A stretch of DNA of 12,533 bases from an uncultured Erysipelotrichaceae bacterium. Lineage in GTDB: Bacteria > Bacillota_I > Bacilli_A > Erysipelotrichales > Erysipelotrichaceae. Where the stretch lies: NCBI GenBank assembly GCA_902766675.1, contig CACXEN010000040.1:1-12533 (forward strand). Reading direction: 5' to 3'. Shown here one piece after another: positions 365 through 12,533 of this stretch (its first letter is position 1; each line of letters begins with the position of its first letter). A model generated the notes under the pieces. The model worked only from the letters and a program-made list of their open reading frames with translations, was not told where the DNA came from and ran no database searches. Made by a program: the position numbers and the translations under genes.

Positions 365-456
365 AAAAAAAAGAACCTCGGTCAAGCCCTCATCTATTTC
401 TCATTTTATATATGTATCAATTACCTTGGCTTGTATTTTTCGAGATTCTTTTTATG
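365..456 (-). terminator. Terminal helix plus U8 tract ending the candidate RNA
   Basis: On the minus strand an A-rich segment followed by GAATCTCG (448-441) pairs with CGAGGTTC (380-373) and the start of the following run of eight T (372-365). The inner helix CAAGCC/GGCTTG (433-428 with 388-383) stacks inside it. The loop is much longer than in a classical terminator, so this may be the end of a compact RNA domain that doubles as an intrinsic terminator. One pair in the outer helix is a U-G wobble that forms only in minus-strand RNA. Confidence 0.5.
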
Positions 457-777
457 TTTTTTTAATTTCCAGATTGATGTTTCTGGTGAAAATATTCTTT
501 TTTAACCCAGTATTTTTTTATACTGTCATGAAATGTAATTTCTATGTATACGGCCTATGCCGCATTGTAAGCTATTTAGTTTTTAAATTGAATTTCCCAT
601 TGGTCTGTCCTCATGCAGACTTTCACTTTCTTTTTTTGAGGAAACTTGTCAGTTTCTGACTTTTCTACGTCCCCTCCGAATCTTTCTGCAACTCATCGAA
701 GTGGACGGCTACTTGTATTCTAGTAATACCTCTTTCATCGTCCTGTACCTACCTTTCTTTATTGGTACCTTACTTAC
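365..777 (-). ncRNA. Candidate structured non-coding RNA of about 410 nt, family unknown
   Basis: No plausible protein is encoded here, but minus-strand RNA folds into a series of helices. In 5' to 3' order these are 764-768/745-749, 725-729/715-719, a 12-bp helix 696-707/668-679 with one mismatch, 656-660/648-652, an 8-bp helix 639-646/591-598 enclosing 616-620/603-607, 559-565/548-554, 520-525/508-513 (A6 loop), 482-486/469-473, and a terminal domain 441-448/373-380 with inner helix 428-433/383-388. The RNA then ends in eight U (372-365). Four of these helices contain five positions that are G-U pairs in minus-strand RNA but C-A mismatches on the plus strand, so the minus strand is the RNA. 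An extended -10 promoter sits at 784-792. I saw no hallmark of RNase P RNA, tmRNA, SRP RNA, 6S RNA or T-box leaders. The 5' end is estimated from the promoter. The fold was drawn by eye, without energies or alignment. Confidence 0.6.
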
Positions 778-783
778 ACTTAC

Positions 784-792
784 AATATAGCA
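784..792 (-). promoter_or_regulatory. Extended -10 promoter for the candidate RNA
   Basis: The minus strand carries TGCTATATT (792-784), an extended -10 element (TGn followed by a 5-of-6 match to TATAAT). No good -35 box is found 16 to 18 bases upstream, which is tolerable for extended -10 promoters. The start would be near 777. It is divergent from the amylase promoter at 815-843. Confidence 0.45.
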
Positions 793-814
793 GTTATAAA
801 TTAAAAGAGTAGAC

Positions 815-843
815 TACACAATAAAAGTTTTTTCTTATATAAT
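815..843 (+). promoter_or_regulatory. Promoter of the GH13 amylase-family gene
   Basis: TACACA (815-820, 4 of 6) and a perfect TATAAT (838-843) are 17 bases apart. The start would fall near 850. That gives a leader of about 40 bases to the preferred start codon at 892, but only about 12 to the ATG at 862. I found no convincing catabolite-response element around it. Confidence 0.6.
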
Positions 844-891
844 AATTCTGTTGGGGCCCATATGGGCGTTTTTATTTATATGGGGGTATGT

Positions 892-8407: not shown

Positions 8408-10753
8408 TTATCTTTGGTATGATTTCTTCTTCAAGATACAGCCAGCTACCATTAGAGATATTACAAATAAGAATGCATCTCGTTGAACTGTAGAAGTATC
8501 TGCAGTATTTGGTGTTGTTGGAGTTTTTGGTCTTTCTGGAGTTTTTGGTTTTTCTGGAACAGGTGGCTTTTCAGGAGTTTCAGGAGTCTTTGGTTTTTCT
8601 GGTTCTTCAGGTGTAGGTTCATCAGGTGTTTCTGGTGTTTCTGGAGGTTCCTTACGATTTGTAAACTCTGCTGCATAAGTTACTTGTGGATCTAAGAATT
8701 GTCCAACTTCACCTTTCGAAATAACTTCAAACTCTTCACCATCTAATTCTTCTACTGTATATTTTGCCTTATCTGGTAAGCCATCCACATATTTCACTTC
8801 GTTATGTTTTAAAGTGAATGTAGCTGTAGAATCAACGAATTCTAAGTCGCCATAAGTACCATCTTCTATCGTTTGGTCAATTGTGACTTTGAATGTGAAT
8901 TCTTTTTCATAATCTTCTTCTCTTGGACTATCTACGATTTTCTTAATTGATAATTTTCCTGAATGTGTATCTTTATAACCAATATTCACTTGTCCATTAT
9001 TACCAATTCCACCACCGCGTGTACCACTGTAGTTATTGATAATCCAAACCTTCGCTTCACTTTCAGCTAATGCATAATCTTCTTCGCTAACATTTGAATT
9101 TAAATATACATTTGCATATTTTCCTGATAAATAGAATGATTTATCCGCATTCTCAAATTTTTCTAACGAATCAGTATGCATCCAGTTATTTTCAATACCA
9201 GCTAATGATTTACTTGCAATATGTGCTGTTGGAACTTTCATCGTATATCCATATGTTCTTGTTAGATATATATCATTGTCAGGTAAACCTGCAACAGTAT
9301 TATTTCTATTCACAAGCGCACCTTCATTGATATAGAAATATGTATGTGATGTTGGACAACTAGCAATACCACCACCAGAACGATATGCAACATTCTTCGA
9401 AATCATTGCATTTGTTAGATTTAAGTATGCTCTATTAGAATCACTTCCATTTACATATATGCCACCACCAGCAAATGAGCAATTATAACCTCCTTTTGCT
9501 TCATTATTGGAGATTATACCACCAGAGATATTTGCTTCTATTTTATAGCCGTCTTTACTTTGTACAAGGATTCCTCCACCACAGCTTTCCGCAACATTAT
9601 GATCAATAATACCACCTGTCATATTCAAAACAGGAGCTGGTCCACTACTATATGTTCCGATACCTAATAAGGCGATACCACCACCAGCATTCAGTGAATA
9701 GTTATAAGAAACTTCTCCACCATGCATATTCATAACACCGCCATTATATAGATAAACACCACCACCGGCATTTCCAATATATCCCCAACTTCCATATGTA
9801 ACATGTGTATCTTCAACTCGATTCTTTGTGATTAAACCACCTGTCATTGTGAAAACACCTTCACTGATAACACCACCACCTTGGGCTGCTGTATTATTTT
9901 GAATCGTACCATCTTCTAATAAGAAATTACCAGATGGGTATACGTGAATCGCACCAAATGCATATGCATTTGAAGACCCATTGTTATTTTGAACATAGCT
10001 CCCCTTTTTCATTGTTAGATTGCCATACACATTGATAATTGATTTAGAACCTTTTTGTTCTTTATCACCATCAATCACAATATCTTCTAGGGTTGCTTCT
10101 TGACCAGCAGGAACATTTAACATTACACCACTAAATCCAGGTGCTCTTTTTAATACAACATCTTTAGGAAGTGTTAATGTTCCGCAAATATCTGTTGTAT
10201 TTAAAATATAAATTGTTTTAACATCTGGATTGCTTTCCAACAATGCTACTGCGGCATCAAAAGATTTTACTGGATTATCTTTTGTTCCTTCTTCTGTACC
10301 ACTTGCAGAAGGTGATATATAAATTTCAGATAAACTTTCTTTACTATTTGTAAGAGATGCTTTCTTTTTTGTTTTTGGTGTTTGTTTGATTTGTGTTGGT
10401 TCCACGAGCTCATTGTTCGTAACCTCTGCATTATCTTCTTCCACCAATTCTTCTTCACTTGTTTGCGTCTCTTTGGCTTCTTCTACAGCTTCAATTTCTT
10501 GACTCTCATCATTTTGTGAAATATCTTCAATCTCTTCTATTATTTCCTCTCCTTGAGGGGATTCTCCAATATTTTGATTATCTTCTGTTATTTCCTCATC
10601 TAGCGTTTCTGTTTCTTCTACAATTTGACTTGTATCCTCTAATTCAGTTGATTCTTCGGCATGAACGTTCACTCCAACAAACGAACAAAAAAGCATTAAA
10701 GATAACAATAATGCGAATATTTTAGATATAAATCGATTTGTACAATACTTCAT
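8408..10753 (-). CDS. Sortase-anchored surface protein: beta-helix plus pilin-type isopeptide domain
   Basis: The 781-residue protein opens with a signal peptide (basic start, hydrophobic 12-28, likely cleavage after VHA at 32). A very acidic stretch (33-118) and a short basic patch (KTKKK) follow. Residues about 145-590 form glycine-rich coils with seven GGG(V/I) turns and repeated TGG-I--N motifs, typical of a right-handed beta-helix. Residues 597-701 resemble a pilin isopeptide-linkage domain, with candidate bond residues in LSIKK, YTVEE and FTNRK. A Pro/Glu/Lys-rich wall spacer (702-747) leads to PNTAD (748-752), a hydrophobic segment (760-774) and the basic tail KKK. GGGGG lies shortly before the ATG. 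The likely role is adhesion or binding of host or dietary glycans; I see no catalytic residues that would prove a lyase. It is flanked by terminators and so forms its own unit. Confidence 0.85.
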   Translation of the reverse strand: MKYCTNRFISKIFALLLSLMLFCSFVGVNVHAEESTELEDTSQIVEETETLDEEITEDNQNIGESPQGEEIIEEIEDISQNDESQEIEAVEEAKETQTSEEELVEEDNAEVTNNELVEPTQIKQTPKTKKKASLTNSKESLSEIYISPSASGTEEGTKDNPVKSFDAAVALLESNPDVKTIYILNTTDICGTLTLPKDVVLKRAPGFSGVMLNVPAGQEATLEDIVIDGDKEQKGSKSIINVYGNLTMKKGSYVQNNNGSSNAYAFGAIHVYPSGNFLLEDGTIQNNTAAQGGGVISEGVFTMTGGLITKNRVEDTHVTYGSWGYIGNAGGGVYLYNGGVMNMHGGEVSYNYSLNAGGGIALLGIGTYSSGPAPVLNMTGGIIDHNVAESCGGGILVQSKDGYKIEANISGGIISNNEAKGGYNCSFAGGGIYVNGSDSNRAYLNLTNAMISKNVAYRSGGGIASCPTSHTYFYINEGALVNRNNTVAGLPDNDIYLTRTYGYTMKVPTAHIASKSLAGIENNWMHTDSLEKFENADKSFYLSGKYANVYLNSNVSEEDYALAESEAKVWIINNYSGTRGGGIGNNGQVNIGYKDTHSGKLSIKKIVDSPREEDYEKEFTFKVTIDQTIEDGTYGDLEFVDSTATFTLKHNEVKYVDGLPDKAKYTVEELDGEEFEVISKGEVGQFLDPQVTYAAEFTNRKEPPETPETPDEPTPEEPEKPKTPETPEKPPVPEKPKTPERPKTPTTPNTADTSTVQRDAFLFVISLMVAGCILKKKSYQR
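8513..8650 (-). repeat. Pro-rich wall-spanning repeat region (PEKPKTPE-type)
   Basis: About 46 codons encode an imperfect repeat of Pro, Glu, Lys and Thr (ETPETPDEP, EKPKTPETPEKP, EKPKTPERPKTP). Such low-complexity stretches span the peptidoglycan between the folded domains and the sortase signal. The DNA is correspondingly repetitive (TCTGGAGTTTTTGG and variants), so copy number may vary between strains. Confidence 0.8.
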
Positions 10754-10919: not shown

Positions 10920-12533
10920 TTAGCTAGCTCTTTTTAGCATTCTTAGTGATAAGAAGGCTGCTAATAGTGACATGATGAATGTTCCACTATAGAAAGGAAT
11001 ATTCGTATGGTCACTTGTATTTGGGGAAATCTTTCCATTTCCAGAGCTTGGTGGTACTGCTTCACATGGTGTGTTTTCACACTTGCATTCTGGGCAATCT
11101 TGTTTTACACACTTATATGCTGCTGCATAGATAATATTACCTTCTGCATCAGTTGTTTGTACCCATCCAGTGAATATGTAATTCTTATGGCTTGGATCAG
11201 CTGGTGCTGTTACAGTACTTGGATCAGTTGTAATAACTGATTTCACTCTTGGATTAGAAGCTAATGGATCAACATAAGTTACGGTATTTGTAATCTCTTC
11301 GTATTTCGCAACTAAGATATATCCTGTTTCATCTTCATAATCGATATCCCATCTTACGAATCGATAGCCATCATGACTTGGATTTTCTCCGATTGCATCA
11401 GTCATATCAGCTTTAGAATTAGCTTCTTTTGCTGCTGCACCTGGCGTTTCATATACATGATGCCATACAATCATTTCTTCTGCATCATTGAGTGGATCTA
11501 CATATGTTACTAGAGGATATACATCCAGTTGATATGTATTCTTGATTGTGACTGTATGTACCTCTACATTTACACCATTATTTTCTTCCATCGTGACTTC
11601 TTCAGTTTGTGTCATGATGTAACCTTCTGGTACTTCTTCCTCAACAGTATAGGCAATCTTATTTGTGCCATTATACTTCGGTAAGTTTTCCCAAGTAACC
11701 GTAGTAACATCTGCTGTGATATCTTTTGTTGCATCTGTTTCTACAGGTGTTCCATCAGCCATCAATGTAAATGTTGTATCTGTTGGCAATGGATCAGCAT
11801 CACTGCCTGAATGATTCCAAACCTTTATTGCAACAACTTTTACATAATTTGTACGCTTATTCGTGATGTATAGTGAACCATCATCACCTTCACCGATTAG
11901 CGATTGATATCCTTCTGGAACTTCTTCCGCAACACTATATTCCACAAGTGTGCCTACTTCACCAGATTTATATTTTGGTAAATCTGTAAATGTGTATTCC
12001 CAAGTATTTGGTGCTGTTTCATTACTTGCGTAAATGACACCATCATACTCATTTCCATCGCTACCAGTTAATTTCACTGCGATGAAGTTAGGTCTCTTAC
12101 CATCTTCATTGTTGTTATCATCCCATACTTTTACAACACTTACTTCTGTTGTATCTGGTGTATGTGCATTGATTACAACATAATCACCATCACTATTTAC
12201 TGTTACTTGTGTTTCATACTCGCTAACTGTCTCTTCTTGTACGAAATAGAAGATACTTTCGAGATGATCTACTTCTTCAACTGTAATCTTTTCAGGCACA
12301 TCATATGTCTCACCTGCTGCTTCTGCAGCTGCTGCAGCCTCTGCATCATAATCAGGATTATCAATTTCAGAAGACTTCGTGATTTCTTTATAAGTAGGTA
12401 AGTTATACCATGTCGCATAACCATCTACTACTTCTTTGTCGTCGTCTGTAACTGCATCATAGCTTTCATTTGGATCACTTTCGTTATTCGCAAATTTATT
12501 TAATTCAATTGCTGAATCAGGAACTTCTTCAAC
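10920..12533 (-). CDS. Sortase-anchored surface protein with Cna-B and InlB-type repeats, 5' end missing
   Basis: The frame is open without a stop from the right window edge to the stop at 10920, giving 537 visible residues; the start and signal peptide lie outside. An apparent start at 12299 is only an internal GTG. Visible residues about 131-227 and 230-334 are Cna-B-like domains, each with a KVW lysine, a YSVAEE or YTVEEE glutamate and an ITN or IKN asparagine, the expected isopeptide-bond residues. Residues 1-130 look like a diverged Cna-B domain (TWYNLPTYK, ITVEE) with an Ala-rich insertion. Residues about 339-475 hold two InlB/Listeria-Bacteroides-type repeats, each starting VTYVDPL. 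A Cys-rich linker (475-490), SPNTSD (503-508), a hydrophobic segment (about 515-530) and a basic tail end the protein. The likely role is adhesin or cell-wall stalk. Confidence 0.85.
   Translation of the reverse strand, partial: VEEVPDSAIELNKFANNESDPNESYDAVTDDDKEVVDGYATWYNLPTYKEITKSSEIDNPDYDAEAAAAAEAAGETYDVPEKITVEEVDHLESIFYFVQEETVSEYETQVTVNSDGDYVVINAHTPDTTEVSVVKVWDDNNNEDGKRPNFIAVKLTGSDGNEYDGVIYASNETAPNTWEYTFTDLPKYKSGEVGTLVEYSVAEEVPEGYQSLIGEGDDGSLYITNKRTNYVKVVAIKVWNHSGSDADPLPTDTTFTLMADGTPVETDATKDITADVTTVTWENLPKYNGTNKIAYTVEEEVPEGYIMTQTEEVTMEENNGVNVEVHTVTIKNTYQLDVYPLVTYVDPLNDAEEMIVWHHVYETPGAAAKEANSKADMTDAIGENPSHDGYRFVRWDIDYEDETGYILVAKYEEITNTVTYVDPLASNPRVKSVITTDPSTVTAPADPSHKNYIFTGWVQTTDAEGNIIYAAAYKCVKQDCPECKCENTPCEAVPPSSGNGKISPNTSDHTNIPFYSGTFIMSLLAAFLSLRMLKRAS
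11064..11111 (-). other. Cys-rich linker in the surface protein
   Basis: Sixteen codons between the InlB-type repeats and the sortase signal encode five cysteines in the pattern C-x4-C-x2-C-x-C-x4-C. The rest of the visible protein has essentially none. The spacing could suit a metal site or disulfides; neither is proved by the sequence. Confidence 0.6.

Follow-up and report, generated by a model that had tools for sequence, protein, structure and literature searches.

A conserved structured RNA of the Erysipelotrichaceae with two very short open reading frames and a candidate translation-coupled pseudoknot

The gap at positions 365–777 of a 12,533-nucleotide stretch of Erysipelotrichaceae DNA (the window) is filled by a real conserved structured RNA, encoded on the minus strand. 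Judged from its letters and those of its relatives, this RNA looks like a translated molecule rather than a noncoding one. Comparison of the relatives shows, at the level of sequence, conservation of two very short open reading frames (ORF1 and ORF2), of the hairpin P2, of a pairing between the P2 loop and a core element, and of a promoter-like region, while the neighbouring genes vary. We propose that it belongs to a new family of regulatory RNAs which are free-standing and coupled to translation, a reading to which we assign a probability of about 0.45. Transcription, translation, a switch driven by ribosomes, the direction of this switch and any output are what we infer. The features, in window coordinates and with the evidence used, are as follows.

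365–777, minus strand: the RNA as a whole, its ends placed by a promoter-like box and a U run.
838–877, plus strand: divergent tiny unit composed of TATAAT (838–843), GTTGGGG, the hairpin GCCCATATGGGC and a T run; simple rule in relatives.
811–815, minus strand: AGTCT box (AGACT in most relatives), exactly 28 nt 3′ of ATTATA; spacing in relatives.
784–789, minus strand: −10-like box TATATT; letters and aligned upstream regions.
745–769, minus strand: P1, GGTACC pairing with GGTAC of the first Shine–Dalgarno sequence; weak.
745–754, minus strand: first Shine–Dalgarno sequence, AGGTAGGTAC; present in relatives.
709–738, minus strand: ORF1, MKEVLLEYK and stop; all 30 DNA-search loci, pN/pS 0.22.
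668–707, minus strand: P2, a hairpin abutting the ORF1 stop; covariation.
685–689, minus strand: P2 loop GCAGA, first strand of the pseudoknot; compensatory exchanges.
615–619, minus strand: UCUGC, second strand of the pseudoknot, which could pair in a local hairpin (P3) instead; compensatory exchanges.
609–612, minus strand: second Shine–Dalgarno sequence GAGG, 8 nt before AUG; conserved block.
583–600, minus strand: ORF2, start-stop minigene MGNSI and stop; stop position across rows.
548–565, minus strand: P4 hairpin; conserved position.
530–542, minus strand: P5 hairpin GAAAU/AUUUC; seen by eye in relatives.
508–525, minus strand: P6 hairpin CAGUAU/AUACUG; predicted in the minus-strand fold.
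469–486, minus strand: P7 hairpin CCAGA/UCUGG; similar hairpin seen by eye in some relatives.
365–448, minus strand: terminator with oligo-U end; fold, and simple rule in relatives.

The minus strand of 365–777 folds with −89.1 kcal/mol (z −4.70) and beats 100 of 100 dinucleotide shuffles. The plus strand beats 100 of 100 shuffles too (z −3.18), so that folding energy is weak evidence by itself, as is the strand-specific sign (G-U pairs on one strand, C-A mismatches on the other) on which the original prediction relied. As folding energy alone decides neither strand nor function, relatives were looked for. The predicted minus-strand structured RNA was borne out by the z-score and by covarying homologues, and the conserved features do lie on the predicted strand. 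Two plus-strand ORFs (280–465 and 342–659) cross the stretch; because relatives conserve the minus-strand features despite these ORFs, we rejected a remnant of a protein gene.

A DNA search with positions 340–860 of the window matched 37 of 60 genomes: 32 of the 36 from the same genus and, with weak E-values only, five of the 24 others. Scanning one genome per species for an exact pattern yielded 48 loci. By their titles, forty of these belong to the Erysipelotrichaceae, including Solobacterium sp., Lactimicrobium massiliense (L038, the cultured strain Marseille-P4301) and OH741_COT-311; eight (L041, L043, L044, L050, L053, L063, L066 and L069) are from unrelated taxa, lack ORF1 and were discarded as chance matches. 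The 30 loci of the DNA search and 41 places in the 40 pattern loci add up to 71, which left 51 rows after removal of duplicates. A model of the first Shine–Dalgarno sequence, ORF1 and P2 (R1) matched 53 of the 195 family genomes; its matches in L113 and L117 are false and read as lipoprotein-like starts. A sequence-only model reaching from ORF1 to ORF2 (R2) matched 102 of 315 genomes of the order and 14 of 79 genera at E ≤ 0.001, all in the family of the window, with 62 of 70 among the same-genus genomes listed; genera g58 and g60 each have a single weak, uninspected match. The class-level search matched 7 of 296, again all in this family. In our searches the RNA is confined to one bacterial family. 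A mobile origin was rejected, as a plasmid search gave no match to the RNA and a phage search nothing credible (five matches of about 30 bases, E 0.3). One match to a viral contig (L119) falls where a large phage-type ORF ends and was taken as chance.

A Shine–Dalgarno sequence followed by ORF1 occurs in every locus of the DNA search, the nearest copy lying 77–193 nt upstream of a conserved block around the second ribosome-binding site. The rule applied in these loci set residues 1–4 and left residues 5–8 free. In the 51 rows, ORF1 was found by rule in 50, L060 (MKRVLFKP) being added by hand. The units of L079–L118 were chosen with the ORF1 pattern, so that conservation of ORF1 is there partly by construction. 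The peptide, mostly 8–10 residues long, has the consensus MK(K/E)(V/I)LL(E/N)(Y/F/I). The 80 copies, which comprise 57 distinct sequences and 27 peptides, gave a pN/pS of 0.22, a ratio which is only partly clean since the control frames gave 0.37 (+1) and 1.68 (+2). Leu5 is present in all 80 copies, for which all six leucine codons are used. The last base of codon 3 is G in 80 of 80 copies and Glu7 is encoded by GAA in 74 of 74, indicating nucleotide constraints in addition. P1, upstream of ORF1, forms its own stem of at least five pairs in 58% of 76 rows compared with 30% with swapped partners, which is weak. Codons 2–4 of ORF1 resemble internal Shine–Dalgarno sequences (AAGGAG, AAGAGGU) and might pause ribosomes.

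ORF1 modules also occur in tandem: two in L006, L009, L025, L076, L078 and L116, three in L012 and four in L080 and L082. L070 has two complete units, and L079 has three ORF1 modules which are 1.2–2.3 kb apart with genes between them. In L082 and L116, ORF2 is absent by the search rule.

A possible, if doubtful, alternative is that the short peptide itself is the product and the RNA a structured messenger for a leaderless peptide, acting as a signal or as an intracellular effector. Tandem modules would then raise or diversify the dose, and P2 and the pseudoknot would protect or pace the messenger. The low pN/pS of ORF1 agrees with this, as do the two to four modules per RNA or locus (for example in L006, L009, L012, L076, L078 and L082) and the two loci with ORF1 modules without ORF2. 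However, no export signal or transporter partner was seen, the fixed G of codon 3 and the fixed GAA of Glu7 point to nucleotide constraints too, and a mere messenger leaves the pseudoknot and ORF2 unexplained.

These two elements are central to the translation-coupled reading. The conserved block GAGGnYAGACCR is a Shine–Dalgarno sequence eight bases before an AUG. The frame opened by this AUG stops at codon 6 in 44 of the 51 rows (25 UAA, 19 UGA), compared with 2.9 expected. It is at most 12 codons long in 50 of 51 rows; as 31.8 are expected to be so short, and as other frames also often stop early, only the exact length counts as evidence for ORF2, and related rows share it by descent. ORF2 is five codons long in 53 of 74 distinct units and at most 12 in 73, with 20 in the remaining one. 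The pattern scan fixes the ORF2 start in its own loci, while all 30 loci of the DNA search had this start without that choice. The ORF2 peptide is unconstrained (pN/pS 0.84). Downstream of ORF2, many rows from several genera share the motif AAYUGAAUA. Divergent versions in L104, L106 and L114 have another core (for example GGGGGUAUAUACCC before the AUG), and a local hairpin perhaps hides the second start.

The stretch had been described as gene-free and its RNA as noncoding; both descriptions give way to two mini-ORFs, one for a conserved short peptide and the other a start-stop ORF, with a Shine–Dalgarno sequence ahead of each. We regard it as highly unlikely that the ORFs are incidental features of a structured RNA that is noncoding. 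The covarying helices, the nucleotide constraints within ORF1 and the low pN/pS of its frame +1 would be in line with such an RNA, but Leu5 is retained through six codons, the ORF2 stop is kept as either UAA or UGA, and both ORFs are preceded by a Shine–Dalgarno sequence.

Covariation among homologues confirmed the predicted structure for P2 (668–679/696–707), which shows two-sided changes in 8 of 8 RNAalifold pairs on alignment A1. On alignment A3, which was fitted to its model, P2 has 97 two-sided cells compared with 45 in shuffles and 79.8% paired cells; slid by +1, it still has 86 two-sided cells and 74.0% paired. The pairing of the P2 loop with the UCUGC-type element, five bases just upstream of the second Shine–Dalgarno sequence, had escaped the original prediction. 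Loop and core exchange together across genera as GCAGA/UCUGC, CCAGA/UCUGG, ACAGA/UCUGU and GUAGA/UCUAC, and L102 has UCAGA/UCUGA. On alignment A4, 219 of 220 cells pair, compared with 23–42% in slid versions, and the variable pair is GC in 31, AU in 7, CG in 5 and UA in 1. Where the pentamer could be scored, its exact complement is present in 43 of 44 A4 rows, the sole miss being one copy of L079, and in 22 of 22 rows outside A4 (16 of the common type, 6 others). In the cross-row control, which pairs rows whose pentamers differ, this holds for 40 of 2128. The P2 loop is missing from five A4 rows (two each from L080 and L081, one from L094), which could not be scored; L016–L018, also unscorable, keep only four pseudoknot pairs. 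The shuffle and cross-row controls leave relatedness in; the exchanges fall in different genera. In L080 and L081, a pairing AUUGGU/ACCAAU could hide the second start.

The alternative hairpin P3 shows no covariation (90.4% of cells paired, observed equal to shuffled) and, though compatible with most cells, is unsupported as a proven helix. When the pseudoknot strand was held in 45 rows of the Solobacterium group, the probability of being unpaired fell from 0.63 to 0.42 for the second Shine–Dalgarno sequence and rose from 0.42 to 0.61 for the ACCR before the AUG. Opening of this Shine–Dalgarno sequence by the pseudoknot is thus unsupported by folding, the sequence being less open on average. 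The terminator loops of relatives (for example L007, L011 and L012) often hold CAGCAG, which could pair with the UCUGC element.

Besides P2, two further helices of the original prediction, 548–554/559–565 (P4) and 373–380/441–448 (the terminator stem), occupy positions used by relatives. The fourth, 591–598/639–646, lacks conservation: the strand AUGGGAAA, which overlaps the ORF2 start, recurs in only 2 of 74 units (L001 and L003). Within a 48-nt stretch, 49 of 51 rows have a P4-type hairpin of at least five Watson–Crick pairs (11.7 expected). Its offset of 8–11 nt is constant in 35 rows, there are 36 distinct stems, and the loop is GAAA in 22. A simple rule detects a terminator in 45 of 51 rows; the six missed include the window, owing to its long loop.

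The −10-like box and the oligo-U end were both found, as predicted, and relatives conserve the promoter-like region as well as the terminator. In 61 of 73 upstream regions (about one expected), the distance from ATTATA to the AGACT that follows is exactly 28 nt. AGACT is followed in the aligned upstream regions by a −10-like box preceding AAGTG, and no clear −35 box accompanies the AGACT/ATTATA arrangement. The AGACT box at its fixed distance may be an unusual promoter or a regulator site. Read in reverse, ATTATA is TATAAT. A simple rule finds GTTGGG or GTTGAGG after it, then a hairpin and a T run, in 50 of 81 upstream regions; this divergent unit would yield an RNA of about 25–30 nt.

A conserved divergent tiny unit, tandem copies and very short ORFs bring to mind a type I toxin–antitoxin-like locus, with the divergent RNA or the 3′ half of the main RNA as antitoxin. 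Type I toxins are hydrophobic and membrane-spanning. ORF1, in contrast, encodes 8–10 residues with charged K and E, too short for such a membrane toxin, and the divergent unit lies outside the RNA and does not overlap it. We consider this explanation hardly likely at all.

The gene following the RNA encodes a Creatinase_N protein in the window, a convergent E1–E2 ATPase in L003 and a glycosyl hydrolase 1 (GH1) in L008, and other following genes were noted by eye, also in other genera. As the neighbouring genes vary, the RNA is no simple leader. It is very unlikely that the RNA acts in cis as a leader or attenuator of the gene downstream, which is pepP-like in the window. By eye, at least 15 of 30 loci do have a pepP-like gene next on the same strand, and an ORF with hairpins looks like an attenuator; against this, the next gene is convergent in 6 of 30 loci by eye (L003, where the ATPase was confirmed, L004, L006, L007, L009 and L019), and the terminator at the RNA end recurs in most rows. 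Elsewhere in the window, two large repeat-rich, surface-protein-like proteins are encoded on the minus strand (8408–10753 and 10920–12533), each with a tail region that is of the proline/threonine type or lacks LPxTG, and with a hydrophobic stretch at the C terminus.

That the RNA matches no known large RNA, as originally stated, agrees with our scans. Covariance models of Rfam 15 (including ROOL, GOLLD, OLE, raiA, 6S, RNase P and tmRNA) gave nothing above gathering in the window, in 300–860 alone or in 18 of 29 further loci. At E ≤ 5, the whole-window scan has two weak matches, both outside the RNA. The scan of 300–860 gave seven matches below gathering, the best to RF04326 (653–715, 20.1 bits compared with 31), and L009 has one sub-gathering rimP match (36.8 bits compared with 47). 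A missing housekeeping RNA of the genome (G000) was rejected, as RNase P and tmRNA are found above cut-off elsewhere in it; a 6S candidate elsewhere in G000 is below gathering (35.7 compared with 46.4 bits). No description of the RNA was found in the open-licence literature searched, and MKKVLLEY was absent from it. A term search gave no match in PMC8632094.

We propose the following mechanism for the translation-coupled reading. A dedicated promoter would give rise to an RNA of about 410 nt which ends at its own terminator. Ribosomes would load at the strong first Shine–Dalgarno sequence and translate ORF1, a conserved short peptide. As the ORF1 stop abuts P2, a ribosome finishing or pausing there may open this hairpin: by its size it should cover the 5′ strand of P2, so that ORF1 translation should disrupt both P2 and the pseudoknot next to the second Shine–Dalgarno sequence. 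When P2 is folded, its loop would pair with the UCUGC-type element just upstream of the ORF2 Shine–Dalgarno sequence. Ribosome traffic on ORF1 would decide whether the pseudoknot exists and hence whether ORF2 is accessible. ORF2 would be a start-stop minigene whose translation matters and whose peptide does not, and the 3′ hairpins would carry the output in trans.

More tentatively still, it may be a chromosomal, stand-alone peptide-mini-operon RNA. Its one to four tandem cistrons would yield octapeptides that hardly vary (MKKVLLEY and its kin), and it would sense its own translation via a loop pseudoknot gating a five-codon start-stop cistron, its dedicated promoter region also driving a divergent tiny terminated RNA. 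If the translation-coupled reading is right, this RNA class brings together elements so far known only separately, in that a free-standing RNA carries both an octapeptide gene constrained at the amino-acid level and a minigene gated by a translation-coupled pseudoknot. Gene finders do not usually call ORFs as short as 5–10 codons, so other loci of this kind may have gone unnoticed. With the base exchanges that occur naturally in the pseudoknot, a reporter could test the mechanism directly.

We could not match the combination of an octapeptide-scale gene, a knot-like fold and a five-codon second gene to a known system, and we know of no other RNA class with minigenes as its only translated output. 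ROOL, GOLLD, OLE and raiA are conserved structured RNAs of unknown function; the present RNA gave no covariance-model match above gathering to them and has ORFs at its centre. To our knowledge, dual-function small RNAs have no pseudoknot-gated second minigene. Like the RNA described here, SgrS/SgrT and VcdRP combine a small RNA with a short ORF, which is longer in those cases, for example 29 residues for VcdP (PMC8672173). ORF1 is likewise a conserved coding ORF, with the caveat of its frame +1. Leader-peptide attenuators of the erm, trp and ilv type also have a short ORF beside a switching hairpin. Related examples are the ilvB and fthC uORF motifs (PMC11109978). Such attenuators control a fixed downstream gene, whereas no constant gene follows the present RNA.

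The leaders of the rep genes (repZ/repA) of IncI-alpha, IncB and IncL-M plasmids are similar in architecture: translation of a short leader ORF opens a structure, and a loop pseudoknot lies beside the second Shine–Dalgarno sequence; a leader ORF and a loop pseudoknot in this position are present here too. Studies of repZ-type leaders are cited in PMC10724649. The second cistron of the rep leaders is a plasmid replication initiator, whereas the RNA described here has a minigene, of five codons in the window, lies on chromosomal-type contigs and has no plasmid match; ORF2, at most 20 codons long among the units, does not encode such an initiator. By analogy, the proposed logic of this RNA would be that of the plasmid repZ leader, with a minigene as the gated cistron.
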